From the IMG/VR virus record IMGVR_UViG_3300021091_003095, positions 1 through 20,355 of that record: a stretch of 20,355 nt of DNA; one strand, 5' to 3'. The position numbers were made by a program, and so were the translations under genes. Below are positions 1,776-18,230 of this stretch, one piece after another; position 1 is the stretch's first letter; each line of letters opens with the position of its first letter. Source of the DNA: a virus. A model generated the notes under the pieces. That model saw nothing but the letters and a program-made list of their open reading frames with translations, was not told the DNA's origin and searched no databases.

Positions 1776-2808
1776 TTTTAGTAGTATACTTGATTTTACA
1801 ACTCCAACGGAGTCTGTAGGTGATGTAAAGGTTTCTTACTCTCAGTTCACAATGTGGGTTAATTGTCCTAAAAAATGGAAATTAACCTATATGGATGGGC
1901 ATAAAGAGGATGAACCTTCTATTCACCTGCTCTTTGGGACGAGTATGCACGAAACTATTCAGGAGTGGTTAAAAACACTTTTTACAAAATCCCCATTAGA
2001 ATCCGATGAAATGGATTTAGGAACTTTATTAAGGGATACGATGGCAAGGGAGTATAAAACTCTATTGGAAACCCGGCCCGATTTAAAGGAGTGGATTACA
2101 AAATCACAAATGAATGAATTTTATTTGGATGGAATAGAAATACTAAACGAGTTAAAGAAAAGTAGGGCAGAGTTATTCTCAACCAGGAAGTGGAAGTTGT
2201 TTGGTATTGAAACAAAATTATATCAACCCATTGTAAAGGGTATGGATAATGTAAAAATGATTAGTTACTTAGATTTAGTTTTTGAAGAAATTGAAACGGG
2301 TAACATTTTAATTGTTGATATCAAAACATCCACCAATGGCTGGAATAGTTATCAGAAAGCAGATGAAACAAAAACAGCACAACTTATTTTATATAAACAC
2401 TTTTTCTCACAACAATTTGGGATTGATTACAAAAAGATTGATGTAAAATATCTAATCCTAAAAAGAAAGTTGAATGAGGCGATGATGTATAATGTAACCC
2501 GATTACAAAAGTTTTCACCAACAAATGGTGGTAGGACAATTAAGAAAACTCTTAAAATGTTTGAGGACTTTGTAAAAGAGGCCTTTAATAAAGATGGTTC
2601 TCATAGGGTTGATAATAATTTCCCAGCAACTGCTGGATTTAATAATAAGCAATGTAAGTTTTGTCCTTTTAAAAATAGATACGATCTTTGCCCAAAAACT
2701 GATAGAATTAAAACCGATTTTTTATTGAGTATTTATCGTAAAAAAGATGAAAGTAACACAGAGATTTTACAGGAGCAAGATTATGACCAGGGTAGCATTG
2801 ATTGGTAG
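1765..2808 (+). CDS. PD-(D/E)XK superfamily nuclease, Cas4/RecB-like with four-Cys cluster
   Basis: This 347-residue protein has the layout of the RecB/AddB/Cas4 nuclease group. It opens with SYSQFTMWVNCPKKW (C34), has LFGTSMHETIQEW with the conserved histidine at 62, the motif SYLDLVFEE (D170), the catalytic strand ILIVDIKTS (D185 and K187), and a QLILY segment (Q206, Y210). Near the C-terminus C297, C300 and C309 lie in CKFCPFKNRYDLCP. With C34 they make the four-cysteine arrangement that binds an iron-sulfur cluster in Cas4 and AddB. It probably acts as a DNA exonuclease in phage replication or recombination. I chose ATG 1765 over the TTG six bases upstream. It overlaps the preceding gene by 11 bases and the next by 26. 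Confidence 0.87.
   Translation: MKNSFSSILDFTTPTESVGDVKVSYSQFTMWVNCPKKWKLTYMDGHKEDEPSIHLLFGTSMHETIQEWLKTLFTKSPLESDEMDLGTLLRDTMAREYKTLLETRPDLKEWITKSQMNEFYLDGIEILNELKKSRAELFSTRKWKLFGIETKLYQPIVKGMDNVKMISYLDLVFEEIETGNILIVDIKTSTNGWNSYQKADETKTAQLILYKHFFSQQFGIDYKKIDVKYLILKRKLNEAMMYNVTRLQKFSPTNGGRTIKKTLKMFEDFVKEAFNKDGSHRVDNNFPATAGFNNKQCKFCPFKNRYDLCPKTDRIKTDFLLSIYRKKDESNTEILQEQDYDQGSIDW
2771..2775 (+). promoter_or_regulatory. Shine-Dalgarno sequence for the SLOG-like gene
   Basis: AGGAG lies seven bases before ATG 2783, inside the 3' end of the nuclease gene. It decides the start of the downstream gene, since a longer reading from 2747 has no such site. It is one of the few strong Shine-Dalgarno matches in the window. 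Confidence 0.6.
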
Positions 2809-3181
2809 TGACCGATATGAAAACCAAATGGAAATCAAAGATTTGGTTTTTAAATTAAAAAATTTATATGGTGATAACCTCATATTGATTTCAAGAGGTA
2901 ATCAAAATGGAATTGAAAAATGGGTTAAGAAATGGGCATTAGAAATGGGTGTTAAATATATTGAATATAATCCGGCATCTACTCCAATGAACCTATATAG
3001 TGGAATGAACCAATCATATTATGAAAAACCCTACCACGCAACACAAAAATTACACCAATATGAATTGATTGCTAGGAACGCAGATAAGATACTATATTTT
3101 GGAGAAATATCACACGGAGAATTATCCCATTTCAAAAAAATGTTGAAAATAACTGGTTCAAAAGTAACTTTTATTGGTTAG
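2783..3181 (+). CDS. DUF2493/SLOG-like nucleotide-binding protein
   Basis: This 132-residue protein begins TRVALIGSDRYENQ, a beta strand followed by a Gly-Ser nucleotide-binding loop. It continues through ILISRGNQNGIEKWVKKWA, where a strand leads to a Gly turn and a helix, and VKYIEYNP. This order (G-S-R start, 'sRG...G.E..v..wA' and 'g......fyP') is typical of the SLOG superfamily, in particular DUF2493/YAcAr proteins of phages, which are thought to bind nucleotides or nucleotide-derived ligands. The substrate is unknown. A C-terminal strand (ADKILYFG and SKVTFIG) completes the Rossmann-like fold. The start at 2783 is supported by AGGAG upstream. It closes the replication-type block; a 37-base gap follows before the sugar genes. 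Confidence 0.65.
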   Translation: MTRVALIGSDRYENQMEIKDLVFKLKNLYGDNLILISRGNQNGIEKWVKKWALEMGVKYIEYNPASTPMNLYSGMNQSYYEKPYHATQKLHQYELIARNADKILYFGEISHGELSHFKKMLKITGSKVTFIG

Positions 3182-3218: not shown

Positions 3219-4640
3219 ATGGAATTAAAATTACCAAAGCTTAGGAAAATAGACCCTAACAAACCAAAGAAAAAGAAGATACTCCTTCTTTCAGATGATT
3301 TAAGATTATTTAGTGGAATAGCAACTCAATCAAAAGAGTTTGTCTTAAAAACCCTACACAAATACGATTGGGTTCAATTAGGTGCTGCATTAAACCACCC
3401 CGAAAACGGAAAGGTTTTAGATGTATCTTCTGATGCTGCAAACGAAACTGGTGTTGAGGATGCTTACCTAAAAATATATTGCACTAGTGGATACGGAAAT
3501 GCCGATATTGTTCGTCAATTAATAAATTTGGAAAAGCCTGATGCTATTCTACACTTTACTGACCCGAGGTATTGGATATGGTTGTATCAGATGGAGCATG
3601 AACTTAGGCAGATGATTCCAATATTTTATTACAATATTTGGGATGATTTACCTGACCCGTTGTGGAACTCACCTTATTACGCAAGTTGTGATTTGTTGAT
3701 GGCGATATCAAAGCAAACTTATGGTATCAACAAAAGGTGTTTGAAAAAGTATGGTATGGATTTGCCTGATTGGACATTTAAGTATGTTCCGCATGGGGTA
3801 TCCGAACATTTTAAACCACTGCCAAAGGATAACGAAAAGTTGGTGGAGTTTAAGAAAAAGTATGGAATTGATAAGATGGAATTTGTGGTGTTGTGGAACA
3901 ATAGAAATATTCGTAGAAAGCAACCTGGTGATTTAATTATTGCTTTTGACCACTTTGTTCAACAATTACCAAAAGAGAAGCGTGATAAGGTTTGTTTGTT
4001 TTTACATACACAACCGGTAGATGAAAATGGAACGGATATACCCGAAGTTATTAAGAATTGTTCAAATGGTGGTAAATACATATTTACAAATCCTGGCATA
4101 TCAACCGAAGAATTAAACCTGTACTACAACTCAGGTGATGTAATTGTAAACCTTACCTCCAACGAAGGATTTGGATTAAGTACTTGTGAGGGAATGAGAG
4201 CAGGAATACCAATTGTGGTGAATGTTACAGGTGGATTGCAGGACCAATGTGGGTTTAAATTGGATGGTAAGTTTTTAACCGAAGATGATTATTTAGAATT
4301 GGGTTCGTTACACGATGTTCGTTCTGATTATTTGAGTAGATTGACTTGGGGCGAATGGGTGAAGCCGGTATGGCCATCAAATCGTTCATTGCAAGGTTCA
4401 CCATTGACACCTTATATATTTGATGATAGATGTGATTTCAGAGATTTTGGAAACGCAATTAAGGAATGGTATGATACCCCAGCAGATGAAAGAGCAAAAG
4501 CGGGGATGTTAGCGCACGCATTTGTAAATGGTGTTGGTAATATGACAGCCGAAAAAATGGGTGAGACATTTATTGAATCAATGGAGCGTGTATTTGAAAA
4601 TTGGAAACCTCGTAAAAAATTTGAAATAGTAAAAATATGA
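3219..4640 (+). CDS. Glycosyltransferase, GT-B fold, family 4-like
   Basis: This 473-residue protein is a soluble two-domain glycosyltransferase of the GT4 type. After a short basic N-terminal tail (MELKLPKLRKID, then KPKKKK) a Rossmann strand ILLLSDD leads to FSGIATQSKEF, the acceptor-side glycine loop. The donor domain starts near residue 222 with VVLWNNRNIRRKQPGD, whose basic residues contact the donor phosphates in this family. It then has EGFGLSTCE (E316-E324), the EX7E motif of retaining GT4 enzymes, followed by MRAGIPIVV. Donor and acceptor are unknown. No membrane segment is seen. The next gene starts at an ATGA overlap and encodes another GT4 enzyme. The N-terminal tail resembles repeats at the C-terminus of that partner. 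Confidence 0.88.
   Translation: MELKLPKLRKIDPNKPKKKKILLLSDDLRLFSGIATQSKEFVLKTLHKYDWVQLGAALNHPENGKVLDVSSDAANETGVEDAYLKIYCTSGYGNADIVRQLINLEKPDAILHFTDPRYWIWLYQMEHELRQMIPIFYYNIWDDLPDPLWNSPYYASCDLLMAISKQTYGINKRCLKKYGMDLPDWTFKYVPHGVSEHFKPLPKDNEKLVEFKKKYGIDKMEFVVLWNNRNIRRKQPGDLIIAFDHFVQQLPKEKRDKVCLFLHTQPVDENGTDIPEVIKNCSNGGKYIFTNPGISTEELNLYYNSGDVIVNLTSNEGFGLSTCEGMRAGIPIVVNVTGGLQDQCGFKLDGKFLTEDDYLELGSLHDVRSDYLSRLTWGEWVKPVWPSNRSLQGSPLTPYIFDDRCDFRDFGNAIKEWYDTPADERAKAGMLAHAFVNGVGNMTAEKMGETFIESMERVFENWKPRKKFEIVKI
3222..3254 (+). repeat. Single N-terminal copy of the K/LPxLRKID peptide motif
   Basis: These bases encode residues 2-12 of the first glycosyltransferase (ELKLPKLRKID). The peptide closely matches the repeated units at the C-terminus of the next glycosyltransferase (KLPELRKVD and relatives), and the DNA is also similar and in the same orientation. 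It may be a shared docking tag or a trace of recombination. Confidence 0.55.
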
Positions 4641-6004
4641 AAAAGTTATGTATAGTTAGCTGTCCTATAGCAACCCGTAGTGGTTACGGGGCTCGTAGCC
4701 GTGACTTTGTCCGTAGTTTGATAAAAGCAAGACCGGATTGGGATGTTAAGATTTTACCTCAAAGGTGGGGTGCTACACCTCAAAACGCATTGGTATTACC
4801 AATAGATGATGATTTGGTGAGTAGATTGGTTTTGGGGCAAATAAATCAAAAGCCTGATGTTTGGATACAAATTACAATACCAAATGAGTTCCAACCTATG
4901 GGTAACTATAACATTGGTATAACTGCAGGGATTGAAACAAATCAGGCTTCACCTCAATTTATTGAAGGTTGTAATAGAATGAACTTAACATTGGTATCAT
5001 CCAAACACGCCAAATCTGGGTTGGAAGTAAAGTATGATATGCAGGATGAAAAAACCCAACAAAAAGTTGGTGAGTTAGGATTAACAAAACCTGTTGAGGT
5101 TCTTTTTGAAGGATTTGATGAGCAGATATACGATAATAAGCTGCCTGTTGAACAATCGGTAAAAGATGTATTGAGTGATGTTTCAGAAGAGTTTTGCTTT
5201 CTATTCGTAGGACATTGGTTGCCTGGCGAATGTGGGCATGACCGTAAGAATGTATGTGCGATGATATATACCTTTCTACAATCATTCAAAGGTAAGAAGA
5301 ACCCACCGGCTCTTATTCTAAAAACAAGTTTGATGGCTCCTTCGTATGTAGATACGCATGAAATACGAAAAAGAATTGAATCGTTAAAAGACCAAGTCCG
5401 AAAAGAAAGTGGGGAATCAAAATTACCTAATATTTATTTATTGAGTGGTGATTTATCAGATATTGAAATGAACTCCCTATATAACCATACAAAGGTTAAA
5501 GCGCATATATCATTCACAAAGGGTGAAGGATTTGGCAGACCCCTATTAGAAGCAATGATAAGTGGTAAACCAATTATTGCTCCAAAGTGGAGTGGTCATA
5601 TGGACTTTTTGGATAATGGTTTTAATGTGTTAGTTAATGGTGAGTTAGAAGAAATACATCAATCAGCAGTGAACGATTGGTTAATTAGCGGTTCTAAATG
5701 GTTCAATATTAATATAAGTGAAGCAGCTGGGTATATGAAGGATATCTACGAAAATTACAATAAGTATTTAGAACTATCCAGAAAGAATCGTAAATATGCA
5801 AAAGATAACTTTACCTTTGATAAAATGACCGAAAAGTTATCTGAATATTTAGAAAAGTGGGGAGCTGATTCTGCACCACAACAAGTTGGTTTAAAACTAC
5901 CAACTCTTAAAAAGATTGAATTACCAAAACTCAAAAAAGTCGATGAAGTAAACGAACTACCAAAAATAAAACTACCTGAATTAAGGAAAGTAGATGCCGG
6001 TTAA
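4637..6004 (+). CDS. Glycosyltransferase, GT-B fold, family 4-like, with a repeated LPxLKK tail
   Basis: This 455-residue protein is a second retaining GT4-type enzyme. The N-terminal domain begins CIVSCPIATRSGYGARSRDF, where the SGYG loop matches the acceptor-domain glycines. The donor domain begins near residue 186 (FCFLFVGHWLP). It contains GEGFGRPLLEAMISGKPII with E297 and E305 as the EX7E pair, then W-S-G-H-M-D-F, typical of donor binding. The catalytic body ends near residue 410. The last 38 residues are a low-complexity tail of LPxLKK(I/V)(D/E) units. The gene overlaps the upstream GT by four bases (ATGA) and the downstream gene by 11, so the three are probably co-translated. Sugar specificity cannot be read from the sequence. 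Confidence 0.88.
   Translation: MKKLCIVSCPIATRSGYGARSRDFVRSLIKARPDWDVKILPQRWGATPQNALVLPIDDDLVSRLVLGQINQKPDVWIQITIPNEFQPMGNYNIGITAGIETNQASPQFIEGCNRMNLTLVSSKHAKSGLEVKYDMQDEKTQQKVGELGLTKPVEVLFEGFDEQIYDNKLPVEQSVKDVLSDVSEEFCFLFVGHWLPGECGHDRKNVCAMIYTFLQSFKGKKNPPALILKTSLMAPSYVDTHEIRKRIESLKDQVRKESGESKLPNIYLLSGDLSDIEMNSLYNHTKVKAHISFTKGEGFGRPLLEAMISGKPIIAPKWSGHMDFLDNGFNVLVNGELEEIHQSAVNDWLISGSKWFNINISEAAGYMKDIYENYNKYLELSRKNRKYAKDNFTFDKMTEKLSEYLEKWGADSAPQQVGLKLPTLKKIELPKLKKVDEVNELPKIKLPELRKVDAG
5888..5995 (+). repeat. Degenerate in-frame repeat encoding LPxLKK(I/V)(D/E) units
   Basis: These bases encode residues 418-453 of the second GT4-like enzyme. The units LPTLKKIE, LPKLKKVD, LPKIK and LPELRKVD follow each other with short linkers. 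Codons vary between units, so selection seems to act on the peptide rather than on the DNA. A related single unit opens the upstream glycosyltransferase gene (3222-3254). Confidence 0.7.
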
Positions 6005-6557
6005 AAAGTTATTCATAAACCAACACTTACGTAGATTGAGTGATGAACAACCTCTAAACAAAATGTATTTGGAGCGAGGTATGGTAGCAAAACTTCAGTA
6101 TGAAAAAGTAAATGGTGAATTGAATTACTATTGGGTACTTGTTTTAGAACCAAAATTCAAAAATTACTTTCATTGTTTAGATTTAAACTATTTAAGACCT
6201 CAAATATTTGAACGATTATCAAAAGATTTTCCGGAAGTGATATCTGAATCAGCAAGAGTTAAAAAATTAGGATTAGCAAAGTTAGAGTTTAATGAAGCAT
6301 CAAAGGGGATATATACCGCAAAAATTAGAAACAAACTATTGCAAGAGGGGTATAGAACTTTTATATGGAAAAACATCAGGACAGTAATAGTTTATAATTA
6401 CAAATACAAACCCGTTGATATGGTAGAACCAAAAGATGTAAGAGAAGCAGAGCAAAAAACAAACGAGCAAAAAACAAACGAGCAAAAAACAAAAGAGCAA
6501 AAAACAAACGAGCAAAAAAGAAATGAAAATAAGTTACGGAATAACAGTAAAAAATGA
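5994..6557 (+). CDS. Hypothetical phage protein with EQKTN-repeat tail
   Basis: I do not recognise a named family with confidence. The 187-residue product has a folded-looking part (residues 1-145) with YYWVLVLEPKFKNYFHCLDLNYL near residues 45-67, which resembles small uncharacterised phage proteins with a 'VLVL.P.....H.L.L.YL' pattern, then a second part ending VIVYNYKYKPVDMVEP. The C-terminus (153-187) is a charged tail of EQKTN pentapeptides encoded by a 15-base tandem repeat. There are no membrane segments or catalytic motifs. It lies between glycosyltransferase genes, with overlaps of 11 and 35 bases, but shows no carbohydrate-active signature itself. A structural or scaffold role is possible but unsupported. 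Confidence 0.72.
   Translation: MPVKKLFINQHLRRLSDEQPLNKMYLERGMVAKLQYEKVNGELNYYWVLVLEPKFKNYFHCLDLNYLRPQIFERLSKDFPEVISESARVKKLGLAKLEFNEASKGIYTAKIRNKLLQEGYRTFIWKNIRTVIVYNYKYKPVDMVEPKDVREAEQKTNEQKTNEQKTKEQKTNEQKRNENKLRNNSKK
6450..6524 (+). repeat. 15-bp tandem repeat, five units (EQKTN pentapeptide)
   Basis: The unit GAGCAAAAAACAAAC occurs at 6450, 6465 and 6495 exactly, with one change at 6480 (last base A) and two changes in the last unit at 6510. Each unit is five codons, so expansion or loss keeps the hypothetical protein in frame. The final unit runs directly into the ATG (6523) of the next glycosyltransferase, so the repeat also forms that gene's leader. Confidence 0.93.
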
Positions 6558-7146
6558 AGAAGTAGAAATCCAAAAATTGCTTGGATTCCTTTTAGAAAAA
6601 AAACGAGAAGAAGATGAGATTATTGTTCTTTTTGATTCTAAAAATGGAACATCTAAAGTATTGGATATACTCAAAGCCTACTCCTTACTGGACTGGTATA
6701 AGTGGTATAGTAGGGATTTTGATAATCATTTTGCAGACCATAAGAACCATTTAAATTCTCTTTGTAGTGGTGATTACATCTTTCAGATTGATGCGGATGA
6801 ATTACCACATGAGAACCTGATATCTCAATTACCTTTACTTTTAGAAAACAATTCAGCAGTTGATTTATACGCTGTTCCAAGAGTAAACACTGTAGAAGGT
6901 TTAACACCCCAACACATTCAAAAGTGGGGATGGAATGTAAATGAATGGGGGTGGGTGAATTGGCCTGATTTTCAAACTCGTATTTATAGAAATACCTCTG
7001 AAATAAAGTGGATAAATAAAGTACACGAAAGACTTGACGGGCACAAACAATTTGCTTATATTCCTATGGAAGAGGATTGGGCGTTGTATCACCCAAAAAC
7101 AATTGAAAGACAAGAAAAACAAAATGATTATTATAATACATTATGA
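6523..7146 (+). CDS. Glycosyltransferase, GT-A fold, family 2-like
   Basis: This 207-residue protein is a compact inverting GT2 enzyme. It opens KISYGITVKNEE, the usual N-terminal strand and nucleotide-binding loop. It carries the metal-binding DxD motif in FQIDADELPHE (D90, D92), and has WINKVHERLDG, which resembles the W-x-x-x-VHE motif of WaaE/KdtX-type enzymes. No transmembrane helix is seen, so it should act in the cytoplasm. It starts within the tail of the previous gene (35-base overlap), immediately after the 15-base repeat, with no Shine-Dalgarno apart from the A-rich repeat. The downstream dehydratase gene begins at an ATGA overlap. Donor and acceptor are unknown. Confidence 0.87.
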   Translation: MKISYGITVKNEEVEIQKLLGFLLEKKREEDEIIVLFDSKNGTSKVLDILKAYSLLDWYKWYSRDFDNHFADHKNHLNSLCSGDYIFQIDADELPHENLISQLPLLLENNSAVDLYAVPRVNTVEGLTPQHIQKWGWNVNEWGWVNWPDFQTRIYRNTSEIKWINKVHERLDGHKQFAYIPMEEDWALYHPKTIERQEKQNDYYNTL

Positions 7147-8285
7147 AAAAAGTATGGTACGCCCCCAACAAATTTGAATCATATGGGGAACAAGAAATTC
7201 AAGCAGTAGTTGATTGTTTACGATCAGGTTGGTTAGCGGGTTTTGGACCCAAATCAATTGAGTTTGAAGAAAGAGTAGCAAAATATTTCGGAAAGAAATA
7301 TGGTGTATTTGTAAACTCGGGTTCATCCGCATGTTTACTTGCATTAGCAAGTTTACTCCTTCCAAAAGGAACTAAAGTAGTTACACCCGCTTGTACATTT
7401 TCTACAACACTTGCACCAATAATTCAGTTGGGTTTAGTGCCGGTATTTGTAGATGTTGATTTGAATACTTATGTAGCCAATGTTGATGGGGTATTGAGTG
7501 TAATAACCGATGATGTTAAAGTCCTAATGCTACCAAATTTAATTGGTAATAAACCTGATTGGAAAAAAATCAAAGAAGGTTTAATTACTATGGGTAGAGA
7601 GGATATTATCCTAATTGAAGATTCGGCAGATACGGTTACTCACACACCCGAAACTGATATTGCTACTACAAGTTTTTACGCATCGCATGTTATTACTGCC
7701 GGTGGTGCTGGTGGTATGGTGATGTTCAATGAAGAAAAATATCGTAATACCTGTTTACAATTTAGAGATTGGGGTAGGATCGGTGATAATTCAGAAGAAA
7801 TGTCTGATAGGTTTAACCATAGTGTAGATGGAATACCATATGATTATAAGTTTTTATATGGTGTTTTGGGTTATAATATGAAATCATCCGAAATGAATGC
7901 CGCTTTTGGGCTTGTTCAATTAGAAAGGTTTGGGGAGTTTGAAAAAATCAGAAGAGATAATATTGAACGATATTTAGAAAACCTAAAAGATGTAAAGGAA
8001 ATATTGTTGCCGGATGATAGTATTAAACCAAATTGGTTGGCAATCCCATTACAAACTGAAAAGAGGTATGAGTTGCTTCATTTTTTAGAAGATAATAATA
8101 TCCAAACCCGAGTAACATTCGCGGGGAATGTAACCCGACATCCAATTTATAGAGAATACTTACAACCATTCCACAATTCAGATATTATTATGAAGAATGG
8201 GTTTTTGTTAGGCGCGCATCACGGGATGACAATTGAGGATGTGGATTATGTGTGTGGTAAAATAAAAGAATTTTTCGGTAAATGA
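7143..8285 (+). CDS. PLP-dependent sugar 3-dehydratase-like protein (ColD/RfbH type, DegT superfamily)
   Basis: This 380-residue protein is a full-length DegT/DnrJ/EryC1/StrS fold enzyme. LIEDSADT provides the Asp (D160) that binds the PLP ring nitrogen, and the active-site segment is SFYASHVITAGGAGG. The position normally held by the PLP-binding Lys is His182. Among known relatives this change marks 3-dehydratases: ColD (GDP-4-keto-6-deoxymannose 3-dehydratase, colitose pathway) and the E1/RfbH group. The Cys cluster that E1/RfbH enzymes have after RDWGR is absent (here RDWGRIGDNSEEM), and the length is close to ColD. A PMP-dependent dehydratase making a 3,6-dideoxy sugar is therefore likely, though the exact substrate is inferred. 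The gene has ATGA overlaps on both sides. Confidence 0.82.
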   Translation: MKKVWYAPNKFESYGEQEIQAVVDCLRSGWLAGFGPKSIEFEERVAKYFGKKYGVFVNSGSSACLLALASLLLPKGTKVVTPACTFSTTLAPIIQLGLVPVFVDVDLNTYVANVDGVLSVITDDVKVLMLPNLIGNKPDWKKIKEGLITMGREDIILIEDSADTVTHTPETDIATTSFYASHVITAGGAGGMVMFNEEKYRNTCLQFRDWGRIGDNSEEMSDRFNHSVDGIPYDYKFLYGVLGYNMKSSEMNAAFGLVQLERFGEFEKIRRDNIERYLENLKDVKEILLPDDSIKPNWLAIPLQTEKRYELLHFLEDNNIQTRVTFAGNVTRHPIYREYLQPFHNSDIIMKNGFLLGAHHGMTIEDVDYVCGKIKEFFGK

Positions 8286-16421: not shown

Positions 16422-17490
16422 TATATCAATTTTAGGAGTAGGTAAATTAGGATTATGTTTAGCTCTTAATTTAGAAAAAAAAGGGTTTAATATAATTGGT
16501 GTTGATATGTATCAAAATTATATTGATTCGTTAATTAATAAAACATTTACCACAAGCGAGCCTTTGGTAACTGAATATTTACAAAGTTCTAACAAAATTA
16601 AATTTACTACTGATTTAAAAACAGCTTTAAAAAATGATATTTTATTTGTAGTTGTAAGTACACCATCAACTTCCGATTGGAAATACAATCACAATGATAT
16701 TGAAAATATCGCCAATCAATTGATTTCTATTGGTAAACAACCAGTAAGAAAAGATTTGATAATTAATTGTACTACATTTCCAGGTTATTGTGATACATTG
16801 CAAGAAAAATTAAAAGAATACAATTATTATGTTTCATATAATCCCGAATTTATAGCACAAGGTACTATTATTAGAGATCAAATAATGTGTGATAATGTTC
16901 TAATTGGAGAAGCAGATAAGTATGCTGGTGATTTAATTCAAAGTATTTATGAAAAAATGGTTGAATCTAAACCAATTTATAATAGAATGTCCCGAACCGA
17001 ATCAGAATTAACTAAATTAGCAGTTAATTGTTTTTTAACAACTAAAATAAGTTATGCTAATATGGTTGGGGATATTGCTAATAGATTAGGATGTAGTTCT
17101 GATGTAGTGTTAAACGCTGTAGGTACTGACTCAAGAATAGGTAACAAATACCTAAAACCAGGATTTGGATTTGGTGGTCCTTGTTTTCCTAGAGATAATA
17201 GAGCATTAGCTAAATGCGCTGAAGAAGTGGGAATTAATGCTGTTATTTCTAAAGCAACAGATGAAATGAATCAAAAACACTTAGAATATCAAATTGAAGA
17301 TTTTATAAAACAAAACCCAAATAAAGAAAAAACTATTAAAATAGATTTTGTTACCTACAAAAAAGATAGTGTATTATTAGAAGAATCTCAACAACTTAAA
17401 TTTGCTATTAAATTAAAAGAGTTAGGATATAAAATTAAAATATTAGATAAAAGACAAGAAGTATTAAAACAACTAAAAAATATATTGTAA
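16414..17490 (+). CDS. UDP-glucose/GDP-mannose dehydrogenase family protein
   Basis: This 358-residue NAD-dependent enzyme oxidises the C6 hydroxyl of a nucleotide sugar twice to a uronic acid. The NAD loop is SILGVGKLGL. The active-site parts are VSYNPEFIAQG (E145), ELTKLAVNCFL (K201, N205) and GFGFGGPCFPRDNRAL with the catalytic C257. The C-terminal domain is somewhat short but still contains VTYKKDS...EESQQL, aligning with the family's 'yK.dt.d.reSp'. The substrate could be UDP-glucose, UDP-GlcNAc, UDP-ManNAc or GDP-mannose. A 2-epimerase gene starts at 19914, so UDP-ManNAcA is one plausible product. It overlaps the next gene at TAATG, and that gene encodes NAD synthetase. Confidence 0.9.
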   Translation: MTNISILGVGKLGLCLALNLEKKGFNIIGVDMYQNYIDSLINKTFTTSEPLVTEYLQSSNKIKFTTDLKTALKNDILFVVVSTPSTSDWKYNHNDIENIANQLISIGKQPVRKDLIINCTTFPGYCDTLQEKLKEYNYYVSYNPEFIAQGTIIRDQIMCDNVLIGEADKYAGDLIQSIYEKMVESKPIYNRMSRTESELTKLAVNCFLTTKISYANMVGDIANRLGCSSDVVLNAVGTDSRIGNKYLKPGFGFGGPCFPRDNRALAKCAEEVGINAVISKATDEMNQKHLEYQIEDFIKQNPNKEKTIKIDFVTYKKDSVLLEESQQLKFAIKLKELGYKIKILDKRQEVLKQLKNIL

Positions 17491-18230
17491 TGTTATATCA
17501 GCAGATATCAAATTGGCTTAAAAATTATTTAGAATCTAATAATTTAGAATGCTTTATAATTGGAATAAGTGGTGGCATTGATTCAGCACTTACATCTACA
17601 CTATGTGCCCAGACAGGTAAAAAAACAATAGTTGTAAGCATGCCAATATATCAGGCATCCGAACAATTAAAAAGATCCCATAACCATATTAATTGGTTAA
17701 AGAGTAAATATTCAAATGTAGAATCGCTTGAAATTGAATTAACTAATACTTTTGAAACATTTAAATCCTTATTTTCTACAGAAAATAAATTAGCATTAGC
17801 TAATTCACGTTCACGTTTAAGAATGACTACATTATATCAAATAGCAGGAATGAATAAAGGATTAGTTGTTGGTACTGGTAATAAAGTAGAAGATTTTGGT
17901 GTAGGATTTTTTACAAAGTATGGAGATGGTGGAGTTGATATTTCTCCAATTGGAGATTTAACAAAAACAGAAGTTAGACAAATAGCTAAACAATTAGGAA
18001 TAATAGAAGAAATTCTTATAGCAAAACCAACAGATGGTCTTTGGGATGATGATAGAACCGATGAAGATCAAATGGGTGCAACATATGAAGAATTAGAATG
18101 GGCTATGGAGTATAAAAAAGATCCTAAAAAATTATTTGGCAGACAAAAAGAAGTTTATTACATTTATAATAAATTAAATAATCAAAATAAACATAAAATG
18201 GTAGCAATACCAACATTCAAAAAAAAATAA
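17490..18230 (+). CDS. nadE: NH3-dependent NAD synthetase
   Basis: This 246-residue protein is the adenylating synthetase that turns nicotinic acid adenine dinucleotide into NAD with ATP and ammonia. The PP-loop SGGIDSA (27-33) binds ATP. GTGNKVEDFGVGFFTKYGDG and GVDISPIGDLTKTEVRQIA are signature segments, and KPTDGLWDDDRTDEDQMG is the conserved acidic loop. There is no glutaminase (nitrilase) domain, so it belongs to the short, ammonia-dependent type. The sequence has a Bacteroidetes-like style, which is an impression only. It directly follows the NAD-using dehydrogenase (TAATG overlap). It may sustain NAD for sugar oxidation or restore NAD depleted by host defence. An amidating paralog for a sugar is less likely, as the NadE motifs look canonical. 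Confidence 0.92.
   Translation: MLYQQISNWLKNYLESNNLECFIIGISGGIDSALTSTLCAQTGKKTIVVSMPIYQASEQLKRSHNHINWLKSKYSNVESLEIELTNTFETFKSLFSTENKLALANSRSRLRMTTLYQIAGMNKGLVVGTGNKVEDFGVGFFTKYGDGGVDISPIGDLTKTEVRQIAKQLGIIEEILIAKPTDGLWDDDRTDEDQMGATYEELEWAMEYKKDPKKLFGRQKEVYYIYNKLNNQNKHKMVAIPTFKKK

Follow-up and report, generated by a model that had tools for sequence, protein, structure and literature searches.

The Glycosyltransferase Pair and Its Surroundings

The window, i.e., the whole analysed stretch of 20,355 nucleotides (IMG/VR virus record IMGVR_UViG_3300021091_003095), is itself the source record of the phage, and genome-wide motif scans refer to its relatives. It carries two adjacent genes, A and B, for GT4-like glycosyltransferases of a T4-like phage. 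The two genes and those following them are:

3219..4640, + strand: gene A, GT4-like (GT-B fold) glycosyltransferase, 473 aa, with an N-terminal tag (Pfam PF00534 and structural model)
4637..6004, + strand: gene B, GT4-like (GT-B fold) glycosyltransferase, 455 aa (Pfam PF00534 and structural model)
5994..6557, + strand: gene C, 187-aa untagged protein, a common neighbour in relatives (homologs in other loci)
6523..7146, + strand: GT2-like glycosyltransferase of the same cassette, downstream (Pfam PF00535, E 1.9e-10)
7143..8285, + strand: DegT/DnrJ/EryC1-type sugar aminotransferase (Pfam PF01041, E 4.9e-69)

The first-pass annotation had described A and B as adjacent and translationally coupled; indeed, the stop codon of A and the start codon of B overlap in ATGA (4637-4640), an arrangement as in translational coupling. 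Both proteins match Pfam Glycos_transf_1 above its cut-off of 26.4 bits (A, E 2.8e-9, 37.2 bits; B, E 2e-8, 34.4 bits). The AlphaFold models of A (pLDDT 89.0) and B (pLDDT 87.7) both find their best fold match in 3oy2, and the best PDB fold matches of the two proteins are enzymes with the two-Rossmann GT-B fold. On sequence and model, A and B are GT4-like, i.e., putative GT-B glycosyltransferases with a predicted role in sugar transfer.

The structure behind 3oy2 is that of B736L (PDB 3OY2/3OY7), a GT4-like protein of the Paramecium bursaria chlorella virus (PBCV) NY2A, which is also the solved structure closest to A by sequence (E 8.3e-14). The likeness is distant, with 15-18% identity in the fold alignments, and NY2A is an algal virus. 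B736L has the GT-B fold with a long last (C-terminal) helix spanning both domains (PMC9614988). Among phages, the closest known arrangement is found in Immutovirus immuto, where gp181-gp177 follow the order of the window: A, B, a small protein, a GT2 enzyme and an aminotransferase. The two loci differ in that the immuto A is untagged and its B is followed by another small protein, Z, instead of C.

Homologs of gene C lie directly downstream of B (or Z) in many loci and are absent from others; C itself has no Pfam match and no PHROG match. The end of the gene (window 6461-6557) encodes tandem EQKTN-type repeats. The protein has 187 aa in the window and in L001/L002, 172 aa in L003, 160 aa in L010 and 231 aa in L004; as these lengths differ between close relatives, the repeat number may vary. 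The gene upstream of A (window 2747-3181) encodes a protein with a weak likeness to the YspA/SLOG family (Pfam YAcAr, E 4.5e-4, which does not reach the curated cut-off), and a similar ORF also lies upstream of A in L166 and L170. An NAD synthase-like protein (Pfam PF02540, E 8.9e-52) is encoded within the sugar-gene cluster at window 17490-18230. A PADLOC search for defence systems gave no match.

Tag Copies at the Ends of A and B

An LPxLKK-type peptide had been noticed at the N-terminus of A (MELKLPKLRKIDPNKPKKKKILLL) and the C-terminus of B (QVGLKLPTLKKIELPKLKKVDEVNELPKIKLPELRKVDAG; the terminus also written out as LKLPTLKKIELPKLKKVDEVNELPKIKLPELRKVDAG), and its presence at both ends was confirmed as follows:

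3231..3254, + strand: tag copy LPKLRKID near the N-terminus of A (sequence)
5885..6001, + strand: disordered C-terminal tail of B, residues 417-455 (pLDDT < 50 throughout)
5897..5920, + strand: B tag copy 1, LPTLKKIE, containing P422 (sequence)
5921..5944, + strand: B tag copy 2, LPKLKKVD (sequence)
5957..5971, + strand: B partial tag copy 3, LPKIK (sequence)
5972..5995, + strand: B tag copy 4, LPELRKVD, near the extreme C-terminus (sequence)

The motif LPxL[KR]K[VI][DE], referred to below as the tag, occurs once in A, at its N-terminus, and in three full copies and a partial one in the tail of B. Of the four repeats originally ascribed to B, LPTLKKIE, LPKLKKVD and LPELRKVD are thus complete, whereas LPKIK is a fragment. 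In the single-chain AlphaFold models pLDDT falls below 50 for residues 1-8 of A and 417-455 of B. Both tags lie in predicted disorder, as short linear motifs require.

At the DNA level the tag copies of the window agree in just 12-17 of 24 bases, which points to selection on the peptide. The same figure bears on the initial proposal that the tags are short direct repeats from recombination bordering a two-gene module. Their location at the N-terminus of A and the C-terminus of B would suit such a module, but near-identical DNA copies would be expected, other genes are tagged too, and the peptide is conserved across deep divergence. The proposal did not survive, its probability being close to nil.

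Conservation of the Tag and Its Specificity

Homologs of B were gathered by patterns that excluded the tail, and more were reached via A homologs and via phage-like contigs in metagenome bins. The tail is kept in essentially all of them: among the 86 non-redundant B homologs, 84 have the loose form of the motif and 70 the strict form LPxL[KR]K, with one to about four copies per tail. In the B copies counted by position, P is found in 148/148, L1 in 142/148, L4 in 144/148 and K6 in 140/148, so that leucine occupies positions 1 and 4 in more than 95% of copies, with I, V, M and F being rare. As the search form demands P, the independent evidence for the invariance of the proline is the P422 column, which is invariant in an alignment of 45 B sequences with 47-100% identity to the B of the window. 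The motif reads [LI]-x-L-P-K-L-K-K-[VI] by position. The logo and the lists of tails show a conserved short core within a variable linker, a pattern found again in the S and M families described below. The B homolog of L207 has an extra acidic stretch after the tail motif (MSDFDNFFEEQGTEPNKYVEGVE), unlike the other B proteins read.

Chance or low complexity as the source of these repeats was rejected on three grounds: shuffled tails, rarity of the motif in proteins of the same loci and a permuted-peptide control. The last 60 residues of the 86 B homologs contain 111 strict LPxL[KR]K copies, and the mean after shuffling, in which the last 45 residues were permuted, was 0.36 (maximum of 3 copies in 1000 trials). 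None of 200,000 shuffles of the window B tail reached its 3 copies. In the homologous loci A and B together account for 326 copies of LPxL[KR]K, against 3 in the remaining ORFs (738,205 aa), and permuted forms of the motif number 0 or 1; random low-complexity sequence, named in the first-pass annotation as a refuting case, does not fit these counts. Of the three exceptions, two are C-terminal tags on a further cassette protein, Z. Across 16 related viral records (~2.2 Mb) the motif is restricted to the ends of A and B, barring internal and out-of-frame matches, and in the whole immuto genome the strict form is restricted to the B tail (LKLPTLKKIELPQTKKVEIPRLKKL).

This distribution can be compared with that expected if the tag held the enzymes at the sliding clamp of the phage, where they would modify DNA as it is replicated. 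The T4 alpha-glucosyltransferase docks on the sliding clamp gp45, with which it co-purifies (PMC13216743), and the cassette lies close to clamp-loader genes. However, the strict motif occurs in no other immuto protein, those encoded by DNA polymerase genes included, and no sign points to an action of A or B on DNA, their neighbours being sugar-related genes; we regard clamp docking as very improbable. The T4 enzyme resembles A and B as a phage glycosyltransferase held by a protein partner, but it is a DNA enzyme, and the accessible part of the report mentions no LPxLKK motif (PMC13216743). It may serve by analogy as a precedent for a partner-held phage glycosyltransferase, not as evidence for the same partner.

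Tagged Proteins Beyond A and B

Scans of the viral collection with the tag alone returned mostly B, followed by A, Z and at least two further families, M and S. Z adjoins A and B, is related to immuto gp179 and is called zinc-ribbon-like from its CxxC pairs, with no Pfam family matching it well; among the matches listed it carries the tag at its C-terminus in L166, L170, L236, L582 and L595. M is encoded directly downstream of the major capsid protein gene on a T4-like contig. In L330/L343, L344 and L345 its linker varies in length and the ending LKLPKLKKV-stop is kept; the tag on M is confined to three close contigs among the matches listed.

S is a protein of about 90 residues from smaller phages, in which a variable linker joins a conserved core to the terminal tag. 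It is represented by at least 16 distinct sequences, nearly all with KLPKLKK-like ends; several were found via the tag and others via the core (e.g., L348, L350, L352), and core-found sequences with altered ends, such as these three, keep at least LPKL. The only PHROG match of S is a weak one to a PHROG labelled as of unknown function. At E 1e-4 none of the proteins on the S-phage fragments, those of capsid genes included, resembled an immuto or window protein in sequence, and a profile search of the S-phage contigs detected no A, B or Z. The tag is portable among at least five protein families (A, B, Z, M and S) from two phage groups without detectable sequence kinship. In a single further case, a 133-aa ORF near a terminase-like gene (L241, 4086-4484, - strand), IKLPKLKKV stands about 31 residues before the end.

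The position of M next to the capsid gene raises the idea that the tag binds a capsid or other virion protein, with the enzymes and accessory proteins acting on the virion; the fold match of A and B to a glycosyltransferase of a chlorella virus fits it as well. Since no protein of the S-phage fragments, the capsid protein included, matches immuto or window proteins and the tag on M is limited to the three close contigs among the matches listed, we consider virion docking improbable.

The tag stands directly at a stop codon at no fewer than 104 distinct sites, of which at least 93 belong to ORFs with a minimum length of 60 aa. For the permuted peptide, which has the same composition, the whole viral collection yielded 38 distinct sites at a stop; 2 lie in ORFs of that length, and no protein family appeared among the 38. 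These counts weigh on a different type of target, namely an anionic surface (inner membrane, lipid-linked acceptor or nucleic acid) bound via the lysines and leucines. The tags are basic and leucine-rich, GT4 enzymes often act on lipid-linked acceptors, and a non-specific target would account for the use of the tag by unrelated phages. The sequence nevertheless seems too specific for such binding (P invariant, L1 and L4 above 95%), and the permuted peptide is essentially absent from protein ends, which leaves the anionic surface an unlikely target.

Gain and Loss of the Tag

Of 131 distinct A homologs, 75 have the tag and 56 lack it. On a tree of these 131 proteins, made without the tag region, its presence needs 8 changes, at least 5 of them forced by strong branches, with the counts being approximate due to the quick method of tree construction. 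The A tag shows the repeated independent gain or loss that is characteristic of short linear motifs. In the cultured Flavobacterium phage immuto the tag is on B and not on A. The Rhodothermus phage RM378 encodes an A homolog (29.6% identity) with a B-like neighbour, neither of them tagged; together with the optional A tag, this partly matches the case, relatives with both enzymes and no tails, that the first-pass annotation had named as refuting its reading. In the Microcystis phage Mel-JY01 (L116) the B tail is degenerate (VMPSLSNTNFPALKKHANITNN), and A is encoded by two separate ORFs, the break falling between the N- and C-terminal domains (L116, 13498-14989). As the A tag comes and goes while the B tail stays, and as a distant A/B-like pair is untagged, the tag is an add-on, and the enzyme pair is older or more widespread than the tag.

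The enzymes themselves might read the tag, with the B tail (and the A tag) lying in a groove on A or B and holding an A-B complex. A and B neighbour each other in almost every locus showing both, they are distantly related GT-B enzymes, and Mel-JY01 combines a split A with a degenerate B tail. Against this reading, Z, M and S are also tagged, S on contigs without detected A or B, the single-chain AlphaFold models leave the tails unplaced, and A-tag presence shows no relation to B copy number, a comparison of five independent pairs only. A and B as their own readers are possible for the T4-like phages, but this would leave S unexplained, and we regard an A-B complex as unlikely. A dedicated A-B pairing by matching tags is not supported, as the A tag is optional and unrelated to the B copy number. 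The earlier suggestion that tags on facing ends could dock the two enzymes on a common partner is partly supported: a bond dedicated to A and B does not fit an optional A tag with 8 changes or the B-only tag of immuto, while docking on a common partner is indirectly favoured by a conserved peptide island in disordered tails that is common to A, B, in some lineages Z, and unrelated proteins.

The Tag as a Probable Docking Motif and Its Candidate Reader

The tag has the appearance of a docking motif: a short peptide, conserved within a variable disordered tail and transferred from protein to protein. We consider it rather probable that the tag is a portable docking motif by which the tagged enzymes share a common reader. 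[LI]xLPKLKK[VI][ED] would act as a short linear docking motif on disordered protein ends, holding both glycosyltransferases, and in some phages also Z, to one reader protein and keeping the enzymes near their acceptor, with the multiple copies on B adding avidity. We infer that the tag binds a protein and that this reader is not encoded in the cassette. More speculatively, both tags may exit on the N-terminal, acceptor side, which would suit a hold on an acceptor-bearing partner. If A and B resemble B736L, such an exit would be expected, as the C-terminal helix of GT-B enzymes crosses back to the N-terminal (acceptor) domain.

The SSB tail and the FtsZ C-terminal peptide are likewise variable disordered linkers ending in a short conserved peptide. 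The tag has the same layout with a different sequence, and as a single motif it recurs in phage families that are unrelated to one another. To our knowledge, docking motifs common to unrelated phages have rarely been described. The tail had no match among solved structures, the literature searched contained no mention of LPKLKK, and nothing relevant on immuto or comparable phage tails was found. The distribution of the tag suggests a docking signal that has so far not been described.

Many tagged loci lack Z and many lack C, so neither is likely to be the universal reader; the C profile hit an S phage weakly (E 0.02), a match that was distrusted. As the tag occurs in unrelated phages, with no phage protein detected as common to both groups, a host reader is slightly favoured over a phage reader too diverged to see; the S-phage contigs are incomplete, so a common phage reader may have been missed. 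LPKLKK as a docking code by which unrelated phages recruit one and the same host protein is a tentative, rather doubtful extension. The retention of the tag in a Flavobacterium phage, and not in the Microcystis and Rhodothermus phages, is compatible with a host-dependent reader (three cases).

A host-derived, i.e., host-mimicking, motif was also considered and rejected: in 300 Flavobacteriaceae genomes the KLPKLKK-encoding pattern was not enriched over a reversed control, and 30 places read in Flavobacteriaceae genomes revealed no credible tagged protein. A host reader would thus have no obvious host clients.

As a nine-residue peptide carried by at least five protein families from two phage groups, the tag would offer a ready bait for a partner. 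Its carriers would be recognisable as acting at a common site, and it could tell where uncultivated phages add sugars. If the host-hub reading were true, glycosyltransferases, the zinc-ribbon-like Z, the post-capsid M and the small S would all be clients of one protein, a hub that phages are not known to exploit.

Relatives of B were also encountered in bacterial and archaeal bins labelled as Pelagibacter, Winogradskyella, Euryarchaeota, Woesearchaeota and others (L123-L138), which look like phage contigs binned by mistake.
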